Assembly: GCA_018725175.1 (NCBI GenBank)
Contig: QLTX01000001.1
Location: 1 to 54,375 of the forward strand
Direction: 5' to 3'
DNA: 54,375 bases
Source: Candidatus Psychracetigena formicireducens
GTDB lineage: Bacteria; Coprothermobacterota; HKB111
Part shown: positions 2,767-13,878 of the stretch, one piece after another
Numbering within the stretch: position 1 is the first letter of the stretch
Layout: each line of letters opens with the position of its first letter
Notes under the pieces: model-generated
Seen by the model: only the letters and a program-made list of their open reading frames with translations
Database searches by the model: none
What the model was told of the DNA's origin: nothing
Translations under genes and position numbers: made by a program

Positions 2767-3063
2767 TTAAGAACCATGATTATATGATGGTTTTTTAAGC
2801 CGAAGTTCAACCCTAAAGCGGATTTCATCCAGGTCTTCTCCCTGTAAAAAGCGTGGGTGTTTTTTAGCAGTTCCAATAACATCTACTCCAAATTTCTCTA
2901 AAGCCCTTTGCTCCCCACTTCCCCACTTTTCAGGGTCTTTATGAAAATACTCATAGCAGAGCTTTAGTTTACACCCTTTTGCCCTTACAGAAAGACCTAT
3001 AGCAGCAGTTGTTTTACCTTTGCCATCACCCGTATAAACTTGAACTAATCCTTTTCTTTTCAT
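2767..3063 (-). pseudogene. cobO: CobO/BtuR corrinoid adenosyltransferase, N-terminal remnant
   Basis: Intact CobO moves adenosyl from ATP to the cobalt of corrinoids. This 98-residue frame begins like CobO, with the P-loop GDGKGKTT at residues 12-19 and a HPRF segment near residue 70, then stops in an unrelated tail after about residue 91. Family members are about 170-180 residues, and the missing half holds the DEIN and LTGR motifs. A matching C-terminal CobO piece lies at 10079-10295, about 7 kb away on the same strand. It is probably non-functional: either one gene split by rearrangement or one of two decaying copies. Confidence 0.8.
2772..2796 (+). terminator. Probable intrinsic terminator after secG
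   Basis: A 6-bp stem AACCAT/ATGGTT (2772-2777 with 2787-2792) encloses a 9-base loop and runs into six T residues on the + strand. It lies 55 bases past the secG stop. It overlaps the 3' end of the cobO remnant on the other strand, so the remnant may have been cut off at this point. Confidence 0.5.
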
Positions 3064-3090: not shown

Positions 3091-3220
3091 CCCTCCGTAA
3101 CCAGAAAAAACATTAAAAACAAAATAGGTATAACACCAGGTTTGATCAGGTTGTTGGCTGGATTAGAAGATCCTGACGATATTTATAGATGACCTTGAAA
3201 AGGCGTTGAATTTAATTTGA
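3091..3220 (+). pseudogene. C-terminal scrap of a Cys/Met-metabolism PLP enzyme
   Basis: The + strand reads KIGITPGLIRLLAGLEDPDD from 3121 to 3180, a close match to the C-terminal signature of cystathionine gamma-synthase and O-acetylhomoserine sulfhydrylase proteins (GIspGLIRlSvGlED). A one-base frame change near 3184 then gives IDDLEKALNLI and a stop at 3218-3220, the usual family ending. Only about 40 codons remain, with no start and no catalytic lysine. It is antisense to the end of the neighbouring btuD scrap. This is gene debris, not an active enzyme. Confidence 0.65.
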
Positions 3221-3365
3221 GTTTCTGGGGGTCAACTCCAAAAACATCATCAAAGTGAGATGAATCCCAAAAACTTATCGAAGGTCCATTGTAGATTACC
3301 TGTCCTTCTTTTAAGCAAAAATAAACTACACATATTGACATTTTATTAACAGCTATAACCTTCAC
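3183..3365 (-). pseudogene. C-terminal remnant of a second BtuD-like ABC ATPase
   Basis: Residues 17-50 of this 60-codon frame (YFCLKEGQVIYNG, then SFWDSSHFDDVFGVDPQKLK) closely match the last 50 residues of the intact BtuD at 10606-11373 ([32 protein letters not shown]). Walker A, the signature motif and Walker B are absent, and the 16 residues before the match are unrelated. It is the tail of a duplicated corrinoid/siderophore-type importer ATPase. It lies between two other fragments, which supports local duplication and deletion. Not functional. Confidence 0.75.
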
Positions 3366-3577: not shown

Positions 3578-4243
3578 TCATGATTTTCGATTAGGAATAA
3601 GTTCTAAAAAATGGTTTTTGCCCCTTTGTATCTTCTTGCCAAGCATAAATCTTACCGGTCTGCTGAAGATCGGTCCATCATAAACAAAGGTATGGTATTC
3701 GCCTCTCTCTCCACAAAGGTCAACTTTCATTTCTTTAAGGTCTGCTACAAACTCTTCATCGATCTCGCGTCCTAACCATTCTTTACTTAAAGAATCAGAT
3801 TGAGTTGCTACGACAACTGCTTTAAAACCTATCTGAATAAATTCTTCAAGTAACTCCTCTCTTTTCCATTTCCATAATGGCAGTTTTGATTTAATATTTG
3901 ATTCTTTACATACCCTCTCTACCCAATCCCTATGCTCCTGAAGGTCGATGTCTCCAAAGATGCCCGCCTGAATTCTCTCTTGTTTTAAATAGGATACCGC
4001 TTCTTTAAATACCTCCTCATAGTCTTCCCAGGTAGTTCTTCTTTGAAGAATAGGAATTCCTATTGCCTCTGCTTGCAGTCTCAATAGATCTGAGTAAATT
4101 CCATGAGAGCGGGAATATTCACCATCTTCTGAGACCATGTTTAACAGATAAGTGCTATTGATTCCTGACTTTCGGGCCTTATAAAACGATAGGCTGCTTT
4201 CCTTACCACCACTCCAGCAGCAGAATGCTTTTATCCCGCCCAT
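3578..4243 (-). CDS. DUF71/COG2102 PP-loop ATP-binding enzyme (diphthine-ammonia-ligase family), likely B12-salvage type
   Basis: A cytosolic ATP-pyrophosphatase-fold protein of 221 residues, normal for the family. The PP-loop SGGKESS is at residues 11-17 and the conserved C-terminal block GERGEYHTFVYDGPIF at 178-193. In archaea and eukaryotes this family includes the last enzyme of diphthamide synthesis. Bacteria lack diphthamide, and a bacterial subgroup was predicted from gene context to act in B12 salvage. The context here (cobD, cobC, cobS, cobT, cobU, btuFCD) fits that subgroup. The substrate is unknown; an ATP-dependent amidation or amide-remodelling step on a corrinoid side chain is only an inference. 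Confidence 0.8.
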   Translation of the reverse strand: MGGIKAFCCWSGGKESSLSFYKARKSGINSTYLLNMVSEDGEYSRSHGIYSDLLRLQAEAIGIPILQRRTTWEDYEEVFKEAVSYLKQERIQAGIFGDIDLQEHRDWVERVCKESNIKSKLPLWKWKREELLEEFIQIGFKAVVVATQSDSLSKEWLGREIDEEFVADLKEMKVDLCGERGEYHTFVYDGPIFSRPVRFMLGKKIQRGKNHFLELIPNRKS

Positions 4244-4267
4244 TTTTCTCTAAGACCACCTTGAAGT

Positions 4268-4378
4268 CTAAGTTTTAAATTTCTTAAGGCACTGCCATAA
4301 TGTTTCAATCTTTTCTCTCTCAAACACACCTTTCTTTGATTTATATGTTACCAAATATACCAATTCAATTAGTAACAT
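4268..4378 (-). other. Unrecognised 36-codon reading frame in the gap before the DUF71 gene
   Basis: In the 270-base gap between the AsnB-like and DUF71 genes, one short frame opens with ATG at 4378 and ends at 4268. Its predicted product is lysine- and glutamate-rich at the C-terminus (VFEREKIETLW). I recognise no family and see no good ribosome site. It may be another gene scrap, as elsewhere in this cluster, or chance. The rest of the gap is A+T-rich with no clear signal. Confidence 0.2.
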
Positions 4379-4513
4379 TTTCTTTATGCATAGTTTTTAC
4401 CTTCTTTATGCTCTTGCAAGTCCTTTATATATATGGCTTGCGACCTATGTAGATTGAACCGTCTTTTTTAATTCTCAGCAAAAAAACAAAATATCAGTTG
4501 GAAAGGGCGGGGC

Positions 4514-5482
4514 TCATTCCTTCCTCAAAACATATCCGCAAACTTTACAGTGAAAAGTATTTTTTTCTACGCCAGCTTTACAACTTGGACATTCCTTTTG
4601 ACCTTCTTTAGATTGGGGGATTCCACCGACCTCTTTTCTATAGATTTCGTAAAAATAAAGATGCTCCTTATTTAAAAAATCTATCTTGTAGAAATCTTTC
4701 TTTTCCCAGAACTCTTTATCTGAAATCCTTGAGCTAATAATCTCTCTTAATTTATCCATACCCGAGCCATACTCAAGGGGTCTTTTATTCTGCCAGGCGA
4801 TCTCTTTTGACAAAACATCCTCAAGGGCCTTCCTCAAAACCCACTTTCCATAAATTTTCCCCTTTTCCTCCCTGACCTTAGACTCTACTGGTATATGAAG
4901 AGCAAAATCAACAAATTCTCTATCAAGATAGGGCTGTCTTATCTTAATCCCAAAGAAATCTCCTAATCTATTAGAACTAAAAGACATAGATGAAGCAATC
5001 CTTTTTATGTACTCATCTAGGTCTTCCATATTCCTTATCACGCTCTTTTGATGAAGGGCGGGGTTCATATAATCATAACCGGCAAAGAGCTCATCAGCCC
5101 CATCACCCGTCATTGCCTCTTTCAAACCTAATTCCTTAACGGTCTTTAAGCCAAAGTAAACTGCTAAGTCATTTGGAATAGCAGGGTCAAAGCTCTTAAG
5201 GATTTTAACAACTGTGGGAATAGATTCTATGGCCTCGTCGATATTTACAGGTCTGTGGTAATGATTAAGGTTTAGGTGTTTTACCAAAAGCCAAGCATAA
5301 AGGATATCTTCCCCTGAAGAGCCTAAACTTACTGTTATTGCTCTAAAATTAGTATTTAATCGCACCAGAAACCAAGCCAAGATGCTTGTATCTACTCCCC
5401 CTGAGAAGAGCATACAGGAGGCAGCGTTTCTTTCGACTGCCATTTCTAACTCCTCCCTCAATCTCTTAACTAAATCTTCCAT
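4514..5482 (-). CDS. Asparagine-synthetase-like amidotransferase domain with C-terminal zinc ribbon, no glutaminase domain
   Basis: A 322-residue protein holding only the synthetase half of AsnB. The PP-loop SGGVDTS is at residues 27-33 and the acidic TGDGADELFAGYDY motif at 125-138. The N-terminal Cys-2 glutaminase domain of ordinary AsnB (500-600 residues) is missing, so ammonia would have to come from elsewhere. The C-terminus adds a zinc ribbon with Cys298, Cys301, Cys312 and Cys315. The gene overlaps the end of cobD by 13 bases, which suggests translational coupling. Placed beside DUF71 in a B12 cluster, it may amidate a corrinoid or precursor, but simple asparagine synthesis is not excluded. 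Confidence 0.75.
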   Translation of the reverse strand: MEDLVKRLREELEMAVERNAASCMLFSGGVDTSILAWFLVRLNTNFRAITVSLGSSGEDILYAWLLVKHLNLNHYHRPVNIDEAIESIPTVVKILKSFDPAIPNDLAVYFGLKTVKELGLKEAMTGDGADELFAGYDYMNPALHQKSVIRNMEDLDEYIKRIASSMSFSSNRLGDFFGIKIRQPYLDREFVDFALHIPVESKVREEKGKIYGKWVLRKALEDVLSKEIAWQNKRPLEYGSGMDKLREIISSRISDKEFWEKKDFYKIDFLNKEHLYFYEIYRKEVGGIPQSKEGQKECPSCKAGVEKNTFHCKVCGYVLRKE

Positions 5483-6533
5483 AATACCTCCTTAAGGCTA
5501 TCTATTAGTTTTATATTTTCTTCATGGCAGCGAACGGCTATGCGGGTAAAGCCTTCATTCAAACCTCTAAAATTTGAGCAGTCCCTTAATAAAATCCCTT
5601 TTTGAATTAGCCTTTCTGTTAAATAGGGAGAAGTTATACCTTTATCCACTATCCTGATAAGGATAAAATTTGCTACCGAAAGGTAGGGGAATAGTCCATC
5701 GACCTTTAAGATTTCTCCCATAAGGAATCTTCTCTGCTTCTCTATAAAATAACGGGTATTTTCAATATATCTACTCTCAGTTAAGGCAGAGGTTGCCGAA
5801 AGCTGGGTGAGGGTGTTTACAGACCAAGGTATCTGATATTTTTTCAGGGTCCTAACTATCTCGGGGTGGGCAACGAGGTAGCCAATTCTTAGACCTGGTA
5901 TGGCAAAAAACTTTGTAAAAGTCCTTAATACAATAATCCTCTCGTCTTTCTGCACTTTCCATATCAATGTGTGATTCCTCTCATCTGATAAGAAATCCGT
6001 GAAGGCCTCATCTATAACTATTATTTTAGCTGGTAGTTTATAGAGTTCCTCACTACCTTCAAGTATAAGATTCCCTATAGGATTATTTGGATTACAGATG
6101 AAAGTGATATCTCCACCCTTTACCTCCGAAAGGGTAAGTGTAAAATTTTCATCCCTATTAAGTTTTACATGCTGTATCTTTGACCCTACGATCCTTGCTG
6201 CCCTTTCATATTCTGAAAAGGTCGGTATGGGTATGGTAACTATCTTTGGCTTGAAGGCATGTATGACCAGATAGATGAGTTCAACTGAGCCATTTCCAAT
6301 AAGGATGCTATCTTTCTCTATTCCCCAATATTGAGCAATCTTCTGAGCTATATCATAGGATTCTGGATCAGGATAATGCAATACTCTATCAATATTTTCT
6401 TTTATGGTTTTCTTTACCTTTAAGGGAGACCTATTGGATTGATGTTGGCACTGAAATCAATTACCTCATCACCATATTTTCTTTTAATCTTATAAATGTT
6501 TCCTCCATGTTCAAAGGCTAATAAATTGCCCAT
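5470..6533 (-). CDS. cobD: Threonine-phosphate decarboxylase CobD, split by a one-base frameshift
   Basis: PLP fold-type I enzyme that decarboxylates L-threonine phosphate to aminopropanol phosphate, the nucleotide-loop linker of cobalamin. The 5' part (from ATG 6533; HGGNIYKIKRKYG then DFSANINPIGLP) stops at 6420. The next frame continues LKVKKTIKENIDRVLHYPDP through to 5470. Joined, they give about 354 residues, normal for CobD. The body holds CNPNNPIG and the PLP lysine in RTFTKFF (residue 157 of the 303-residue frame starting at 6381). One lost base near 6423 explains the break, so this is either a recent pseudogene or a sequencing error. Confidence 0.85.
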
Positions 6534-6900
6534 TGTAAAACAACACTTCCTAAAACCATCAATAAAGATGTTAGGAGACTTATGTTTAAGGATTTTCCGA
6601 TCAAAAAAGGCTCTATTTTTCTTTTTTCCTCTCCAATTATCTGCTTTCCTTCTTAATACCCTGTGAAAAGAACCGTTAGACATAGCGGTAGATCCACATA
6701 TTGTTGAATAACAGTTACAACCTGCTGCAAAATTTTCTTCCCTTGTGCTATTTCAGAAGTAAGATTAACATCATGTACAACTACTCCCATTTCAATCTAC
6801 GAAAGTATAAGACTCTGGATCAAGGACATGTCTTTAAAACGGATAGCCTCATACACCAGCCTGTTCACAATATTTATCTTTTCTCTCATTATCAGCACTA
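6534..6900 (-). pseudogene. Decayed pterin-binding (methyltetrahydrofolate:corrinoid) methyltransferase
   Basis: Reading from GTG 6898 or ATG 6889, the - strand gives MREKINIVNRLVYEAIRFKD, then IQSLILS, an in-frame TAG at 6797-6799, then IEMGVVVHDVN and VVTVIQQYVDLPLC. This follows the family pattern of AcsE/MtrH-type pterin-binding proteins (GERIN start, Q...GA..LDVN, iQ..vdvPLC). After a frame change, GEEKRKIEPFLI resembles their GEkerlE..lpl segment. An intact member is about 260 residues; at most 110 are traceable. It sits between cobC and cobD, where a corrinoid-dependent methyltransferase is plausible. Not functional. Confidence 0.55.
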
Positions 6901-6979: not shown

Positions 6980-7612
6980 CTACTTCTCTATGTAATTCAT
7001 AAGTTTTATGACTGGATACTTATCCCAGAATTCAATGATATTCAAACATCCATAGTCCTGTTCGACCCTGAAGATATTCTCAAGTGGTATACCAAGAAGA
7101 TGACAGATAATTATCCTGTTTACTCCTCCATGGGCAACTATGGCAATATCATTGTTATGCCCTCCAATAATTTCATCAAGGACTTTTATAACCCTTTCCC
7201 TTACTTCTAAAGTGCTTTCACCGCCCATAGGACCATATTTAAGGGGATTTTCTGCCCAGGCTCTGAATTCTTCTGGATACTTCTTTTTTATCTCGTCATA
7301 AGTCATGCCCTCCCATATTCCAAAATTACGTTCCCTCAGTTCAGAAACAATGATAAGTTTAAGAGAATGTAGAGAATGTAACTTTAAAATTACCTCTGCA
7401 CTTTTCATCGCCCTGCTTAAATCAGAGGTATATATAGTTTTCAAACTTGTAACCCCTGACCCTTGAGTACTGACTCTATTTATGTACTCTGCTACCCTTT
7501 CCATCTGTTTCACACCCTTTTCAGAAAGTGGAACATCAATTGTCCCTTTATATCGCTTTACCTCCTCACCCTGAGTCTCGCCGTGTCTCATCAAATAGAG
7601 AGTCGTGACCAT
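6980..7612 (-). CDS. cobC: Alpha-ribazole phosphatase / histidine phosphatase family
   Basis: Removes phosphate from alpha-ribazole-5'-phosphate (or from adenosylcobalamin-5'-phosphate) late in cobalamin nucleotide-loop assembly. The phosphohistidine motif RHGET is at residues 9-13 and the second histidine is in VAHGGVNR near residue 160; the 210-residue length is typical. Sequence alone cannot separate it from other phosphoglycerate-mutase-like phosphatases. The 22-base overlap with cobS and the cobU/cobT neighbours make CobC the best call. Confidence 0.85.
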   Translation of the reverse strand: MVTTLYLMRHGETQGEEVKRYKGTIDVPLSEKGVKQMERVAEYINRVSTQGSGVTSLKTIYTSDLSRAMKSAEVILKLHSLHSLKLIIVSELRERNFGIWEGMTYDEIKKKYPEEFRAWAENPLKYGPMGGESTLEVRERVIKVLDEIIGGHNNDIAIVAHGGVNRIIICHLLGIPLENIFRVEQDYGCLNIIEFWDKYPVIKLMNYIEK

Positions 7613-8397
7613 GCTATCACCATCAATAAAAAAATTATTTCTGTAATTTCACTAATCGCACCAAGTGTATCCCCGGTAAGACCACCAAATTTCCTATCAA
7701 AAAGACCAACCCATGCACGGCTGGAAAAATATATTACTATCAGCAAAACTGCATAAAAAGCATGCTGAGAATTTGAAATAAAACTAAATAAAAATGTCTG
7801 CGGTAATATCAATAATAGAAAAAGTATCAGAGTGGATATAGCAATTTCTTTAAAGCCAGTTCCGTTTATAAAAAGCCTTCCAAGTCCGTCCTCTCTCGCC
7901 GCTTTACCATAGAACATTGATATAACCATGGTCCATTTTGATAGTATAGGCATTAGAAAAAGTGAAAAGTAAAAGGTGTGAGGGGAAAGGCGAGACAGAC
8001 CATCTAAGGCAAGAAATTTCAGCAGGAGTGTAAGAATTAAAGCAACTACACCGATAGGGCCAGTTGTGCTATCCTTCATTATAGCAAGTCTATTTTGTCT
8101 ATCAATTTCTGTGCTGCCCTCCGACCTCGCCGCAATGGCATCAATTGTATCTGAAAGCCCGTCAAGATGGAAACCTCCGTTGCTCAGCACAAGCAAAAGA
8201 ACAAGCAGTCCATTTGTCAGCTCTTGAGGAAATACCTTTCGCAGGATGAAATTCACAGTAACAAGCAGTGCCCCTTGGAAAACACCTACTAATGGAAAGA
8301 GTCCGGATGCTCTTCCAATCTCTCTTTCAGAGACATCTCCTTTCACTTTTACTGGTATTATCGTAAGAAATTGAAATGCAAGTAATATTGGTTTCAC
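7591..8397 (-). CDS. cobS: Adenosylcobinamide-GDP ribazoletransferase (cobalamin synthase)
   Basis: Integral membrane enzyme that joins adenosylcobinamide-GDP to alpha-ribazole (phosphate) to make cobalamin. The 268-residue protein is hydrophobic with several membrane segments. The conserved acidic loop [15 protein letters not shown] spans residues 73-87, followed by [15 protein letters not shown] near 103-117. Its ATG overlaps the cobT stop by 4 bases and its 3' end overlaps cobC by 22 bases, a tight cobT-cobS-cobC unit. Confidence 0.95.
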
Positions 8398-9446
8398 TGT
8401 TTTGATACTTTCGCCTCTTCAAAAGTCGCCATCTCTTTATAAATCTTAAGTCCTGCCTCTATTATAAGCATAGCGAGGGTGGCGCCTGTACCCTCGCCGA
8501 GTCTTAGTTCAAGGTCGAGAATGGGTTTTAATCCTATCTTATGGAGCATTACCTCATGTCCTATTTCCATTGAATTATGAGCAGCAAACATATAATCCTT
8601 TACTTCTGGGTTAAGACAATAAGCTATCAAAGCTCCAGCAGTTGATATAAAGCCATCAATAACAACAGGAACCTTATTTGCTGCTGCACCTATAATTAAT
8701 CCAGCAATACCACCAATCTCAGCCCCTCCAACTTTAGTAAGGACATCTAATGGATCTGAAGGATTTGGTTTATTTAAAGAAATTGCATCTTCAATCGCCC
8801 TGATTTTATTTTTCAATACCTCATCACCTATACCCGTACCTTTACCGGTTACTTCTGACACAGGTTTACCTGTTAACACCGCAGCAATTGCAGATGATGG
8901 TGTTGTATTTGCAATACCCATATCACCTGCAGCAAAGATTTTATAACCTTTCTCTGTATATTCATTTGCAAACTCTATCCCAACCTCTATACACTTAAAA
9001 GCCTCATCTTTCGTCATTGCAGGGCCTTTCCTTATATTCTTTGTTCCCATGACGACTTTTTTTGAAACAAGCCCATTTATATTACCGAAATCATAATCAA
9101 CCCCTATATCAACGACTACTATTTCAGCCCCTGCATGCCGTGCAATGACATTTATACCAGCACCGCCACAGAGAAAATTAAATACCATTTGTCTCGTAAC
9201 TTCTTTGGGAAAAGCTGAAACCCCTTCTTCTACGACACCATGGTCCCCCACAAAAATAAAGACAACTTTTTTATCAAGTTCAGGCACTGGATTCTCTGAA
9301 ATCGCTACCAGCCTTTTTGCAAATTCCTCAAGCCTTCCAAGGCTTCCCCGAGGCTTGGTAAGATTATCGAGCTGTGCTTGGGCTGTAACATACCATTTTT
9401 CATTTATAGTTTTAATTTTTTTCAGTGCACTATGCAGTAAGTCCAT
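8394..9446 (-). CDS. cobT: Nicotinate-nucleotide:dimethylbenzimidazole phosphoribosyltransferase
   Basis: Activates the lower-ligand base by transferring phosphoribose from nicotinate mononucleotide, giving alpha-ribazole phosphate. The 350-residue protein has [11 protein letters not shown] at residues 32-42, the FVGDHGV segment near 65-71, and catalytic Glu318 in [15 protein letters not shown] lies just upstream of the ATG. This is the intact copy; a second, internally deleted copy is at 10284-10594. Confidence 0.96.
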
Positions 9447-9548: not shown

Positions 9549-10076
9549 TTATTTTATTCTTAAAGGTATACCTACAACCTCGAGATATACTTCATCCGCT
9601 ACCTCAGCAATCTTCTGGTTTAAAATCCCTGCCATATCTCTAAATCTCCTCGCGAGCTCATTGTCTGGCACGATGCCAAGACCGACTTCATTTGAAATGA
9701 TAAACAATGATGAGTGATAGGTGAAGAGTGACAAGTCCCTAAGTACATTAATCAGATTTTCAATCTCTAGATCGATATTGAAATTAGAATGCATCAGATT
9801 TGATAGCCACAATGTAAGGCAGTCAATTAAAATAACATTGTACTTGCCTTTTATTTTCCCAAGCAAACCAACAATCCTCAATGGTTCTTCATAGGTAATC
9901 CACTCATCACCCCTCTGGCGTCTATGATTTTCTATTCTTTGCTGCATCTCTTCATCAAGAACCTCTGCGGTTGCAATATATGCCTTTTCACCTGAAATCT
10001 TAGATGCTTCTTTAAGCGCAAAAATGCTTTTACCGCTTCTTGCGCCACCAGTGATGAAGACTATTTTTCTTTCCAC
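9549..10076 (-). CDS. cobU: Adenosylcobinamide kinase / adenosylcobinamide-phosphate guanylyltransferase
   Basis: Bifunctional enzyme that phosphorylates adenosylcobinamide and then attaches GMP. Walker A GGARSGKS is at residues 10-17; HRRQRGDEW and LIDCLTLWLSNL follow in family order. I chose GTG 10076, giving 175 residues, because family similarity starts there. An upstream ATG at 10118 is in frame, but its extra codons overlap, in another frame, the end of the CobO remnant that stops at 10078. TTG 10088 is another option, with AAAGGGG just ahead. Confidence 0.93.
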   Translation of the reverse strand: MERKIVFITGGARSGKSIFALKEASKISGEKAYIATAEVLDEEMQQRIENHRRQRGDEWITYEEPLRIVGLLGKIKGKYNVILIDCLTLWLSNLMHSNFNIDLEIENLINVLRDLSLFTYHSSLFIISNEVGLGIVPDNELARRFRDMAGILNQKIAEVADEVYLEVVGIPLRIK

Positions 10077-10078
10077 TT

Positions 10079-10295
10079 TAATATTCAATCCCCTTTCTTC
10101 CTCGCACACCCTTATCATAAGGATGTTTTATGCTCTTTATTTCACTAACTAAATCAGCCATTTCTATTATTCTTTCCGGGACACCACGGCCCGTTAGTAC
10201 CACCTCTAAGCCCTCCTGTCTGGAGTTCAATATTTCCGAAACCTCTTCTGTTTTCAAAAATCCATCCCGTAGGCAATATTTATCTCATCTAATAC
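10079..10295 (-). pseudogene. cobO: CobO corrinoid adenosyltransferase, C-terminal remnant fused to a CobT remnant
   Basis: Beginning at VLDEINIAYGMDF, the frame shifts within a run of five T residues near 10259 and continues as LKTEEVSEILNSRQEG, VVLTGRGVPERIIEMADLV and KHPYDKGVRGRKGIEY, with a stop at 10078-10080. DEIN, LTGR, ADLVTE and the KHPY..G..R.GIEF ending are all CobO hallmarks. The P-loop half is missing; instead the frame runs in directly from a CobT C-terminus. Non-functional, but it marks where a cobO gene once stood, between cobT and cobU. Confidence 0.8.
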
Positions 10296-10594
10296 CTTTG
10301 TTGCAGCTTCAGCCAGAAAGATGCCAAGTGCAGCACCCGTCCCTTCCCCACACCTCAGCTCCAGGTCCAGTAAAGGTTTGAGCCCTATGTGGCGTAGTAC
10401 CACCCGGTGTCCACTCTCCGCCAAGACATGAGAGTCAATGAGATAATCTTTGAGTCACCCTGGTTACTGAACTCTTCAAGCCTCCCCAAGCTTCCTCTGG
10501 GCTTAGTGAACTGATCCTGTCTTACCCTGGCTTTTGCCATGGCCTCTCTGTCCAGGGAAATTATGGAGTTTATTGTTTTGCCTATCAATTCCAC
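10284..10594 (-). pseudogene. Second cobT copy with a large internal deletion
   Basis: The first 45 codons match CobT ([20 protein letters not shown], then [14 protein letters not shown]). The next recognisable sequence, one frame over, is the CobT C-terminus ([55 protein letters not shown]). Compared with the intact copy, about residues 45-282 are missing, including most of the active site. At VLDE the frame passes straight into CobO. It differs enough from the neighbouring cobT to be an older paralogue or transferred copy rather than a recent duplicate. Confidence 0.8.
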
Positions 10595-10605
10595 GATTAC
10601 TCCTG

Positions 10606-11373
10606 CTACCCCTTATGTGAAGAGTTCAGGATAGACGATTCTGGCTTGAGCATCTCGGGCTCAACCCCAAAAGCTTGAATAAAGAAGGAGGAATCCCAAA
10701 AAGAATAAGGCTCACCATCATAGACAAGTCTTCCTTCTTTTAAGCAATAGATATGCTCTGCGAAGAGGCGAAGAAAACTAAGATCATGGGAAGCAATTAA
10801 AATAAATCTTTGCTTAGAAACATCCTTCAGAACTTCAAGAAGTTTGACCCAGTGTCTGGGGTCTAAAAAAGTGGTGGGTTCATCCAGCAATAATAGGTTG
10901 GTATCCTGAACCAGAGCTCGTGCTAAACGAGCTCTCTGCTTTTCTCCAGAACTAAGTTCTATTAAAAACTTATGTTTAAATCTCTCCATATCAGTTATCT
11001 CTAAAGCCCAGTCTATGATTCTCCAGTCCTCTCTACTTAAAGGAGACATAAAAGAAAGATAAGGATATCTCCCCAGTTTAGCCAGTTCTAAAACTGTGAT
11101 CCCCAGTTCAAGATGGTTGCCTGGTCCCAGAAAGCTTACCAATTTCGCTAACTCTCTGGAAGAATACTCTCTTAAATCCTTTCCTTTATAAAAAAGATTT
11201 CCTTTCTGTGGTTGCAGGATCCTCGCTATTATTTTTAATAGGGTAGACTTCCCGCTACCATTCTCTCCTACTATCCCCACCCTCTTATATCCTTCCTTTA
11301 TCCTCAAAGAAAGGTCCTGTAAGACCCATCTTTCATTCCGATAATGAAAGAAGATTTCATCTAACTCCAGCAT
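10606..11373 (-). CDS. btuD: Corrinoid (B12) ABC importer ATPase BtuD
   Basis: ATP-hydrolysing subunit of the BtuFCD-type importer. The 255-residue protein has Walker [10 protein letters not shown] at 36-44, signature LSSGEKQ at 140-146, Walker B LLLLDEP at 160-166 and the switch histidine in IASHDLSF. The Q-loop glutamine seems to be missing: where relatives have a PQ dipeptide before GITV, this one reads [14 protein letters not shown]. The gene starts 6 bases after btuC. FecE-type siderophore ATPases look alike; the riboswitch and cob neighbours argue for corrinoid. Confidence 0.9.
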
Positions 11374-11379
11374 TTTTAT

Positions 11380-12273
11380 CTAAACCCTCCTTCGTAAGAG
11401 ATAAAGGAAGAAAGGCCCCCCCAACATAACCGTAATTACTCCTACCGGTATCTCCACAGGAGCAAAGGCGGTACGGGCGAAAGTATCAGAAACTACAAGT
11501 AAACTTCCACCCAAGAGAAAGGCAACAGGAAGAAGGGTGTTGTGTAAAGAACCTGAGATAAGTCTGCTCATATGAGGAGCAATTAGACCTACAAATCCAA
11601 TTATTCCAAACTTAGAAGATACCAGAGAGACAGAAAGGGCAGAGGCTATAAGAAGAAAAAGTCTGAATTTACCAACTTTAAGACCGAGACTCAAGGCTTC
11701 CTCTTCTCCCAGTAGAAGAACATCAAGGCTGCGGTGAAGAAGGAGAAAGAGAAAAAGGTAAATACTGCCAGCAATAACTAGCCCCAATGCGTCCCTTAAA
11801 CTAGAATTGGAAAAACTCCCCAGTGCCCAGAAAAACCCACCATGGAATGGTCCCTTCCAAGTAATGAGGAGAAAAGTAGTAGTTGCAGCCATAAAGGAAC
11901 CAACAACAATCCCACCCAAGAGAGTCTTGATCAGAGACACCCCACCATTATGTTTGCCTAAATACAGTGTCAGGAAAGTAGCTAAAAGTGCGCCCAAAAA
12001 GGCCCCAGGCCATGGATAAAGGTAACCAAGTCTTAGGAAAAGGATGCCTCCCAAAGTGGCGCCTGAAGCAACACCTAAAACATAAGCATCAACTAACGGA
12101 TTTCGAAATACTGTTTGATAAAGAACTCCTGAAAAAGACAAAATCCCCCCTACTAAGAAGGCTGTGAGGACACGTGCTAACCTTAAATTTAAGAGGAGAG
12201 GTAAGTAAGAATCAGTTCCACTTCCCGAGAAAAATGAAAGTAGAGCTGGGAGCGGTATGTGCACCGCTCCCAA
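11380..12273 (-). CDS. btuC: Corrinoid ABC importer permease BtuC
   Basis: Membrane permease of the BtuCD/FecCD family, with many hydrophobic helices plus the conserved RNPLVDAYVLGVASGA and GLIAPHMSR segments. The first usable start, TTG 12273, gives 297 residues, shorter than the usual 320-350. In the same frame, coding similarity continues upstream for about 25 codons (SKFLLLASFSLLALVSLGSS, a first membrane helix) to about 12345, but no ATG, GTG or TTG occurs there. Either a rare ATA/ATT start is used, the start has mutated, or helix 1 is lost. The frame's upstream end overlaps the btuF stop. Confidence 0.88.
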   Translation of the reverse strand: MGAVHIPLPALLSFFSGSGTDSYLPLLLNLRLARVLTAFLVGGILSFSGVLYQTVFRNPLVDAYVLGVASGATLGGILFLRLGYLYPWPGAFLGALLATFLTLYLGKHNGGVSLIKTLLGGIVVGSFMAATTTFLLITWKGPFHGGFFWALGSFSNSSLRDALGLVIAGSIYLFLFLLLHRSLDVLLLGEEEALSLGLKVGKFRLFLLIASALSVSLVSSKFGIIGFVGLIAPHMSRLISGSLHNTLLPVAFLLGGSLLVVSDTFARTAFAPVEIPVGVITVMLGGPFFLYLLRRRV

Positions 12274-12350: not shown

Positions 12351-13568
12351 TTATGGTTTTGAAAATATGTGCACCTCTTTAAATTCATTGTCCCAGAAGA
12401 GCTTGAAATCCATAAACTCTAATATTCTCCTCAAAGGCAAAAGTCCTTCTACCATTGAAACGGTTAAAAATCTCCCATCTTTAAAGGTAATTTGAGTAGA
12501 ACTACCAATAATCTTTAACTCTTTCAAATAACCATTCAAAAGGACTTCTATAGCCTCTCTGGTTACATGAAATCTTCCGCGCAGATTCTTCAATGATACC
12601 CTGGGTAGAACTAATAAATTATCCTGATAAAGCTTGCCTTCTAAGGTAGATAGCGAAAATATTCTACTTTTCTTAAGTACGGGATCTATTGCTTTACTAA
12701 CTTCAAGCATTCCTTGAATTACCCTTGGTCCAGGCCTGAAAAGAAGGTCATCATCAAAAGGAAAAACTCTTCCCTCTTTAACTGCCTTTAGGTGTTTGAA
12801 GGGAGATTCTCGTAGAAAAGAAGGGTCTATGCCCATAGACTTTGTAGGATACAGGATAATATCCGGCTCTTCATGAAGCAATGCTTCAGGAGAAACAATG
12901 GGGTAAGCCCCTATATCCTTTCTGATGTAATTTAAACCTCCACCCTCTTCCACCACTGATGCAATAAAAGAACCCGGACCAACAGTTATCAGGGGGTCGT
13001 GCCAGACCAGCACCAGGACCGTCGGTTTATTCTTTGCATCTTTAAAATAGCTTCTTATGGGCCTTCTAAAAGCATTCAGGGAAGCCACCAGTTCACGAGA
13101 TTCCTTAACTCTATCTATGGCCTTACCTACATTCAGAATGTTTTTCAAGACACCTTCCACATTCTGAGGCTCCAGAACCACCAGAGGATAGGCTCTCATC
13201 AAAGGCTCAGCCATAGCCTTGGAAAACATACGGGTTGTCAGGATCAACTGAGGGCGTGAAGCAATGATTCTCTCAGGACTGGGATTGACAGCCCCTCCAA
13301 TAGAAGGGATTTTGCTTACCCCTTTGGGATAATTACAGAAATCAGTTCTTCCCACCAGAAGATTCTGGGCTCCCAGGGCAAAAACAATCTCTGTAGCTGA
13401 TGGAGCAATAGAAACTATCCTTTGGACTGGCAGATTTACTCTGACCTTTCTACCTATGTCATCAATGATGACCACTGACCTTTGAGTATTGGCATAAGCT
13501 AGAGAAACTGAAATAAATGTGAGTAGAACCAGACCTGCTGAAATAACCCTTAAAAACCTTTTAAACAT
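12351..13568 (-). CDS. btuF: Corrinoid-binding protein BtuF with C-terminal copper-amine-oxidase-like domain
   Basis: Extracytoplasmic binding protein for the BtuCD importer. A signal peptide covers residues 1-26 (cleavage after AYA; no lipobox cysteine). The TroA-type fold follows, with RIVSIAPSATEIVFALGA, then LVGRTDFCNYP and VWHDPLITVGPGSF. At 405 residues it is about 110 longer than usual. The extra C-terminal part (from about residue 305) ends LRRILEFMDFKLFWDNEFKE and VHIF, matching the LRFIaEalGAkVeWd..tktV.I pattern of copper-amine-oxidase N-domain-like repeats, often cell-surface modules. AGGAGG precedes the ATG, and a cobalamin riboswitch lies upstream. Confidence 0.88.
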   Translation of the reverse strand: MFKRFLRVISAGLVLLTFISVSLAYANTQRSVVIIDDIGRKVRVNLPVQRIVSIAPSATEIVFALGAQNLLVGRTDFCNYPKGVSKIPSIGGAVNPSPERIIASRPQLILTTRMFSKAMAEPLMRAYPLVVLEPQNVEGVLKNILNVGKAIDRVKESRELVASLNAFRRPIRSYFKDAKNKPTVLVLVWHDPLITVGPGSFIASVVEEGGGLNYIRKDIGAYPIVSPEALLHEEPDIILYPTKSMGIDPSFLRESPFKHLKAVKEGRVFPFDDDLLFRPGPRVIQGMLEVSKAIDPVLKKSRIFSLSTLEGKLYQDNLLVLPRVSLKNLRGRFHVTREAIEVLLNGYLKELKIIGSSTQITFKDGRFLTVSMVEGLLPLRRILEFMDFKLFWDNEFKEVHIFSKP

Positions 13569-13642: not shown

Positions 13643-13678
13643 CCTTTCCTTCCTGCCTCGAGAAGGTTAAGATATGGA

Positions 13679-13825
13679 GTTTCACCTCAGGTCTCCTGGC
13701 TTCTGGGTCACAGTTTGAGAGAACCTTCCCAGAAAAATATTCCAGTGGTTTTCTTCTCTCGTACTCTCCAGTTACAGTTGCGGGACAGCGCCGGCTTCCT
13801 ACCGGTCTTCCCTGAAATGTAAAAC
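13679..13825 (-). ncRNA. Cobalamin (AdoCbl) riboswitch controlling btuF and the cob genes
   Basis: The - strand carries the class hallmarks in order: a closing stem GTTTTAC (13819-13825) with GTGAAAC (13679-13685); the core GCTGTCCCGCAACTGTAA followed by GGAGAG; CCACTGG; CTGGGAAGG; TGACCC; and the B12 box AGCCAGGAGACCTG at 13688-13701. These match the Rfam-type cobalamin element. It lies about 110 bases ahead of btuF and should repress uptake and salvage when adenosylcobalamin is plentiful. Confidence 0.93.
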
Positions 13826-13833
13826 CTTGAGGC

Positions 13834-13839
13834 ATTATA
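13834..13839 (-). promoter_or_regulatory. Candidate -10 box for the B12 operon
   Basis: TATAAT on the - strand, 8 bases before the riboswitch closing stem, so transcription would begin at the aptamer edge. The -35 match 17-18 bases upstream is poor (TTATTT), hence moderate confidence. Confidence 0.45.
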
Positions 13840-13850
13840 CCATAAAATAA

Positions 13851-13878
13851 TTTAGAAAATAAAATATTTTGCTATAAT
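13851..13878 (+). promoter_or_regulatory. Candidate sigma-70-type promoter for parA
   Basis: TTTAGA (13851-13856) and TATAAT (13873-13878) are separated by 16 bases on the + strand, about 70 bases before parA. It is back to back with the B12 operon promoter, so the 120-base spacer is a divergent control region. Confidence 0.5.

Follow-up and report, generated by a model that had tools for sequence, protein, structure and literature searches.

A zinc-ribbon AsnB-like synthetase and its DUF71 partner in B12 operons: probably an undescribed route for adding amide groups to the corrin ring

The corrin ring of B12 requires six amidations with ammonia, those at the a and c side chains being carried out by CbiA and those at the b, d, e, and g side chains by CbiP. 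A different enzymology is known from AsnB and beta-lactam synthetase, in which a carboxylate is activated as an adenylate and passed to ammonia or another amine. Adenylation-type amide formation is also described for PP-loop enzymes of the Dph6/DUF71 type (PMC3541065). The same paper defines a DUF71-B12 subgroup of DUF71/COG2102, which carries an ENGE[FY]H-type motif, is linked to B12 through btuFCD and cbiB, and is anticorrelated with CbiZ in bacteria (de Crecy-Lagard et al. 2012, PMC3541065). There, DUF71-B12 is treated alone and a role in pseudo-B12 salvage is proposed; in the passages found, AsnB comes up solely in fused form, within DUF71 proteins of archaea. Here, we analyzed a stretch of 54,375 nucleotides from Candidatus Psychracetigena formicireducens (contig QLTX01000001.1; hereafter the window), in which a B12 operon on the minus strand ends with genes for an AsnB-like PP-loop synthetase bearing a C-terminal zinc ribbon and for a DUF71-B12 protein. 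We named the zinc-ribbon AsnB-like family found here AsnBz. Genome comparisons suggest that AsnBz and DUF71-B12 are probably an undescribed route for adding amide groups to the B12 ring. The two genes and their signatures in the window are:

4514-5482, minus strand: AsnBz, an AsnB-like PP-loop synthetase of 322 amino acids with a C-terminal zinc ribbon and without a glutaminase domain (PF00733)
5384-5404, minus strand: PP-loop SGGVDTS of AsnBz (SGG-D invariant in the family alignment)
4535-4591, minus strand: zinc ribbon of AsnBz, residues C298, C301, H311, C312, and C315 (invariant in 39 sequences)
3578-4243, minus strand: DUF71-B12 PP-loop protein (PF01902; solved relatives 2d13 and 3rjz)
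3692-3712, minus strand: GERGEYH signature of DUF71-B12, with His where Dph6 has Glu (signature from PMC3541065)

A sequence-only reading of the window had described a glutaminase-less AsnB-like protein with a zinc ribbon, next to a DUF71 protein after cobD. Profile searches confirm this description: AsnBz matches PF00733 only (137 bits, E 2e-39), with no GAT-II domain, its C-terminus shows the C-x2-C...HC-x2-C pattern, and the DUF71 protein matches PF01902. Scanning 84,980 species genomes returned 139 relatives, from which 80 loci were retained. AsnBz is a coherent family, found among Omnitrophota, Desulfobacterota, Nitrospirota, Aerophobetes, Elusimicrobia, Aminicenantes, Chloroflexota, Methanophagales, other archaea, and more. 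Across 39 aligned members, 37 columns are invariant; SGG-D, FDPA-x-PND, the zinc-ribbon C, C, H, C, and C, and the K and E-x-GSG of a K-R-P-x-E-x-GSG stretch are all invariant. The strict zinc-ribbon pattern is present in 78 of 82 AsnBz open reading frames, the remaining four being truncated or frameshifted. No NCBIfam or Pfam model naming the family was matched, and viral contigs contained only generic AsnB relatives.

The predicted structure of AsnBz (pLDDT 90) is closest to AsnB (1ct9) and beta-lactam synthetase (1jgt) among solved structures, with a TM-score of about 0.7, and shares with them the fold of the synthetase domain and the PP-loop. Unlike these two, AsnBz lacks GAT-II, carries the additional C-terminal zinc ribbon, has a replaced substrate-binding segment, and scores under every curated cut-off. 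As E. coli AsnB is the best solved relative, one might take AsnBz for an ordinary asparagine synthetase or a generic ammonia ligase that resides in the operon by chance. However, the window protein reaches only 113 bits with TIGR01536 (asn_synth, cut-off 267) and 141 bits with NF006949 (AsnB, cut-off 499). In the profile alignment, the invariant A-[IL]-P-N-D of the FDPA-x-PND block stands where E. coli AsnB has the segment TTIRAST with its T-T-I-R, which makes aspartate an unlikely substrate. We rejected the identity as asparagine synthetase on these two grounds, and with the B12 link of the family described below, a chance resident of this kind is highly improbable.

The DUF71 protein of the window (PF01902, 177 bits, E 6e-52) contains the PP-loop WSGGKES. 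It is not Dph6-like, having a His within the motif where Dph6 follows EGG[ED]xE, and reaching 128 bits with TIGR03679 at a cut-off of 197. Like the published DUF71-B12 proteins (PMC3541065), it combines the PF01902 fold and PP-loop with a GExGE[FY]H signature and clusters with B12 transport and salvage genes, here btuFCD and cob genes. The same signature is present in 55 of 59 AsnBz-linked DUF71 proteins. The comparative-genomics link of DUF71 to B12, mentioned in the sequence-only reading, had already been published, and the GERGEYH of the window agrees with it. Neither a zinc-ribbon partner nor a connection to CbiP figures in the passages found in that account. We also observed a CbiZ-family amidohydrolase (PF01955) in the same operon as DUF71-B12 in four loci (L088, L091, L112, and L120), contrary to the strict anticorrelation in bacteria stated there.

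The association of the two proteins is not a local accident but recurs in B12 operons across many bacterial phyla, with many uncultured bacteria among them. DUF71 is the next recognized gene after AsnBz in 62 of the 80 loci, and four more loci stop at a contig end. B12 genes lie within the fetched stretch in 74 of the 80 loci, the other six being five archaeal loci and one from Spirochaetales; the family is thus found mainly in B12 contexts, as the sequence-only reading required. The distance matrices of AsnBz and DUF71 correlate with r of about 0.78, and a partial correlation of 0.59–0.73 persists once the signal of cobT, btuC, cbiB, or cobU is removed. Both the pairing and the co-evolution fit the two-part step proposed from the sequence alone.

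We next consider the relation to CbiP (TIGR00313), which was sought in 73 AsnBz genomes, 64 bacterial and nine archaeal. Intact CbiP was present in four of the 64 bacterial genomes (G152, G162, G203, and G221) and in two of the nine archaeal ones (G182 and G208), whereas G164, G204, and G206 have broken or partial copies. The expected co-occurrence of AsnBz with DUF71 and cobU/S/T, but rarely with CbiP, is therefore borne out, and AsnBz and CbiP are distributed in a complementary manner apart from the genomes just named. An Omnitrophota AsnBz operon (L130) contains a CbiP pseudogene comprising the glutaminase half only (5268-5879), upstream of cobA.

As a control, 291 genomes of one Desulfobacterota class were searched for AsnBz and CbiP and also for CbiC, which marks de novo corrin synthesis. 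Seventeen of them have AsnBz, in every case with DUF71 adjoining if two genomes cut by contig ends are included. CbiP was found in 2 of the 17 genomes with AsnBz versus 197 of the 274 without it (Fisher p 1e-6; this and the following p-values of the class ignore shared ancestry and draft-genome gaps). The difference appeared in both backgrounds: among CbiC-positive genomes, CbiP was missing in 4 of 6 with AsnBz versus 5 of 143 without (p 9e-5), and among CbiC-negative genomes it was present in 0 of 11 with AsnBz versus 59 of 131 without (p 0.003).

These 59 CbiC-negative genomes retain CbiP without CbiC, and many salvage-only Desulfobacterota are among them. The presence of CbiP in salvage-only Desulfobacterota suggests an uptake of incompletely amidated corrinoids, which CbiP seems to finish or repair. 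In the same class, an AsnBz-free salvage operon (L238) has the order btuFCD-CbiP-cobU-cobS-cobD-cbiB, where CbiP would occupy the role of AsnBz-DUF71.

A corresponding exchange is seen in de novo operons of near relatives. Genome G298, without AsnBz, has the order cbiC-cbiL-cbiET-cbiFG-cbiH-cbiP-cbiA-cobF-cbiB-cobD, and G221 has cbiC-cbiL-permease-cbiD-cbiET-cbiFG-cbiH-AsnBz-DUF71-cbiB-cobD. Aligned blocks of the two operons show 87–91% DNA identity as far as the start codon that follows cbiH, and from cbiB onward the identity is 78%. Because the flanks match and the identity breaks after cbiH, AsnBz-DUF71 occupies the slot of cbiP-cbiA-cobF. G171 and G198 show the same arrangement as G221 after cbiH, and in G180 the pair resides in the same cluster. 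CbiP was not found in G171, G180, G195, or G198. The CbiA-like genes of G171, G180, G198, and G147 adjoin dsrAB; we rejected them as retained CbiA and assigned them to DsrN. G171, G180, and G198 therefore show no CbiP and no true CbiA, and G195 has no CbiA-like match at all.

The distribution and the operon swap are most simply read as amidation of corrin side chains by AsnBz and DUF71 using free ammonia, a reading to which the origin of both proteins from adenylating, amide-forming families (the AsnB fold and Dph6/DUF71) lends support. AsnBz and DUF71 would each convert a carboxylate of the propionate or acetate side chains of the corrin ring to an acyl-adenylate, with the PP-loop splitting ATP into AMP and pyrophosphate, and ammonia would then displace AMP to give the amide. 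Free ammonium is the presumable nitrogen source because neither protein has a glutaminase domain. In de novo producers, the pair would take over the tasks of CbiP (the b, d, e, and g amides) and perhaps also those of CbiA (a and c), thereby delivering cobyric acid to CbiB/CobD. In salvagers such as the organism of the window, it would amidate incompletely amidated or partly hydrolyzed corrinoids imported by BtuFCD before CobU/CobT/CobS complete the cofactor.

On balance, we consider it probable, by a modest measure, that AsnBz and DUF71-B12 are ammonia-using corrinoid side-chain amidases which stand in for CbiP, perhaps also CbiA, in some producers and re-amidate scavenged corrinoids in salvagers. 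The folds, the motifs, the conserved pairing, the co-evolution, the anticorrelation with CbiP, and the operon swap are observed, whereas what the pair acts on, where the nitrogen comes from, and how the side chains are shared out between the two proteins are inferred. The sequence-only reading had proposed a two-part amidation or side-chain repair step for scavenged corrinoids. The amidation part is strengthened by the CbiP anticorrelation and the cbiP-cbiA-cobF swap, but the pair probably does not serve only in repair of scavenged corrinoids, since it also occurs inside complete de novo operons. CbiP/CobQ and CbiA/CobB, which are the proposed functional equivalents and share the slot between cbiH and cbiB, consist of a BioD-like P-loop domain and a class I glutaminase domain and are unrelated in sequence to AsnBz or DUF71. 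Only PF00733 and PF01902 were matched by the latter two, which do not belong to the CbiP sequence family, so the analogy is functional only. More tentatively, the pair could be a complete non-homologous replacement of CbiA and CbiP, introducing all six amides in some de novo producers and kept in many salvagers; we regard this wider version as possible, although less than probable.

Several observations weigh against side-chain amidation by the pair. Relatives were counted in the test within the class, which is thus not independent of phylogeny; most of the six de novo genomes with AsnBz look like one closely related group, and nearly all genomes are draft metagenome assemblies, so that absences can reflect incompleteness. 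The four bacterial and two archaeal genomes listed above have AsnBz together with CbiP. Of these, G221 and G203, with a de novo background, still carry cbiP-cbiA elsewhere, and the displacement is therefore incomplete there. For G203, we considered contamination as the source of CbiP but doubted it, since cbiP-cbiA of G221 is 93% identical (CbiP), and the gene is more likely real. DsrN might supply the a,c-amidation, and it is not obvious why salvagers would require six amidations. No DUF71 lies close to archaeal AsnBz. Conversely, DUF71 without AsnBz also occurs, both according to PMC3541065 and in L249 and L251, so DUF71-B12 may have a different job. The DUF71-only genomes of the Desulfobacterota class are a poor test of DUF71 alone because their DUF71 is mostly located outside B12 clusters.

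Neither the zinc-ribbon AsnB-like partner nor the conserved pair nor the relation to CbiP came up in the openly licensed literature searched. Searches of the same literature for an AsnB-like corrinoid enzyme, missing CbiP, CbpB with cobalamin, and later work on DUF71-B12 returned nothing beyond PMC3541065. The B12-linked DUF71 proteins have been without a settled role since 2012, and a fixed partner together with the complementarity to CbiP points to a specific, testable reaction. If corrin amidation by the pair is true, there would be a second, unrelated enzymology for this step, and genomes lacking CbiP or CbiA that are now scored as incomplete producers or plain salvagers would need re-scoring. 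A full replacement of CbiA and CbiP would settle the function of DUF71-B12 as well.

The window operon itself also bears on the function of the pair. Behind a cobalamin riboswitch, which RF00174 confirms, the order is btuF-btuC-btuD-cobU-cobT-cobS-cobC-cobD-AsnBz-DUF71. The remaining features, including gene remnants, are:

13669-13864, minus strand: cobalamin riboswitch RF00174, upstream of btuF (full-length model match, 90.1 bits, E 4.8e-21)
12351-13568, minus strand: btuF-like corrinoid-binding protein (TroA-like/BtuF models; the BtuF in a related operon gives 123 bits)
11380-12273, minus strand: btuC-like permease
10606-11373, minus strand: btuD-like ATPase
10281-10573, minus strand: second cobT remnant, pseudogene pieces (two cobT fragments, E 5e-17 and 7e-8)
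10081-10272, minus strand: cobA/btuR C-terminal remnant (61% identity to CobA residues 113-176, E 1e-21)
9549-10118, minus strand: cobU (PF02283, E 4e-56; NF004469 above cut-off)
8394-9446, minus strand: cobT (TIGR03160 above cut-off)
7591-8397, minus strand: cobS (TIGR00317 above cut-off)
6980-7612, minus strand: cobC, alpha-ribazole phosphatase (TIGR03162 above cut-off)
6524-6637, minus strand: cbiB C-terminal remnant of 38 codons (45% identity over CbiB residues 274-311, E 5e-6)
5470-6533, minus strand: cobD, frameshifted (the 3' part scores 250 bits with TIGR01140; both frames align with a single CobD)
3204-3359, minus strand: second btuD C-terminal remnant (43% identity, E 3e-11)
2767-3063, minus strand: cobA/btuR N-terminal piece (PF02572, profile residues 2-67 of 172)

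Part of the operon has decayed, which the sequence-only reading did not note. The reading frame of cobD is broken near 6429-6441, where two frames align with one intact cobD, and no CbiB was found elsewhere in the 93%-complete genome of the window. The frames of AsnBz and DUF71 are still open and their conserved residues kept. An intact counterpart in Auribacterota (G114, L086, on the same contig as L093) has the order cobC-cobU-cobT-cobS-cbiB-cobD-AsnBz-DUF71-btuF-btuC-btuD-cobA. The 13-base overlap of AsnBz with cobD, noted earlier from the sequence and located at 5470-5482, recurs in this genome with the same length.

The survival of both PP-loop genes where cbiB has been lost speaks against a role confined to supplying CbiB with cobyric acid, although the decay may be recent. 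It also counts against corrinoid remodeling, the 2012 proposal for DUF71-B12, here extended to AsnBz: the pair would replace CbiZ and open pseudo-B12 or other unwanted cobamides to cobyric acid, from which CbiB rebuilds. The linkage of DUF71-B12 to btuFCD/cbiB and its anticorrelation with CbiZ in bacteria, both reported in PMC3541065, speak for remodeling, as does the location of the pair mostly in salvage operons; remodeling salvagers need no CbiP, which fits the anticorrelation in CbiC-negative genomes. However, both folds make amides at the cost of ATP, whereas hydrolysis needs none, and the remodeling amidohydrolases CbiZ and CbiR are indeed hydrolases without ATP. CbiZ shares the salvage-operon context with AsnBz-DUF71, but its presence alongside the pair in four loci means that the pair is not simply a CbiZ substitute, and remodeling does not account for the exchange with cbiP-cbiA seen in a de novo operon. 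We therefore judge remodeling unlikely.

The absence of an intact cbiB from the window could instead be taken to mean that AsnBz assists or replaces CbiB by activating the f-propionate of cobyric acid for aminopropanol or its phosphate. AsnBz overlaps cobD, the maker of aminopropanol phosphate, and the distances of AsnBz and CbiB correlate (r 0.79–0.82). Archaeal AsnBz without DUF71 is found near cbiB in L160, L162, and L164, with a cysteine-rich small protein (PF04071) in between in L160. Such a ligase is nevertheless rather improbable: an intact cbiB is present in most AsnBz operons, other organisms manage with CbiB alone, and the swap partner is cbiP-cbiA, not cbiB.

Apart from corrin amidation, a peptide substrate of AsnBz might be considered. 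AsnB relatives make lactams in lasso peptides, and an NCBIfam lasso cyclase model is among the weak matches of AsnBz. About ten loci contain, beside AsnBz and mostly between it and DUF71, a cobopeptide cassette made up of CbpB, a radical SAM enzyme (TIGR04163, 673–707 bits versus a cut-off of 375), and CbpA, a peptide of ~35 amino acids with RKKCKAxGTGLSHYILLDKK (TIGR04164 above cut-off). AsnBz could accordingly modify CbpA together with CbpB as an enzyme for ribosomally synthesized and post-translationally modified peptides. This is very unlikely, since CbpB accompanies only about 10 of 80 AsnBz loci, versus 62 with DUF71 adjoining. The cassette was not found in the window, where 270 bp without a recognizable gene separate AsnBz from DUF71, and a search of this gap for a decayed CbpA/CbpB cassette gave no support.

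The cassette stands between AsnBz and DUF71 in L089, L091, L101, L102, L103, L105, L107, and L145 and ahead of AsnBz in L115; CbpA also occurs in L100 and CbpB in L104. In L088, L089, L091, L092, L101, L102, L103, and L145, the gene after DUF71 (or CbiZ) encodes a radical SAM protein akin to NrdG2/MoaA activases, with two such proteins each in L091 and L101.

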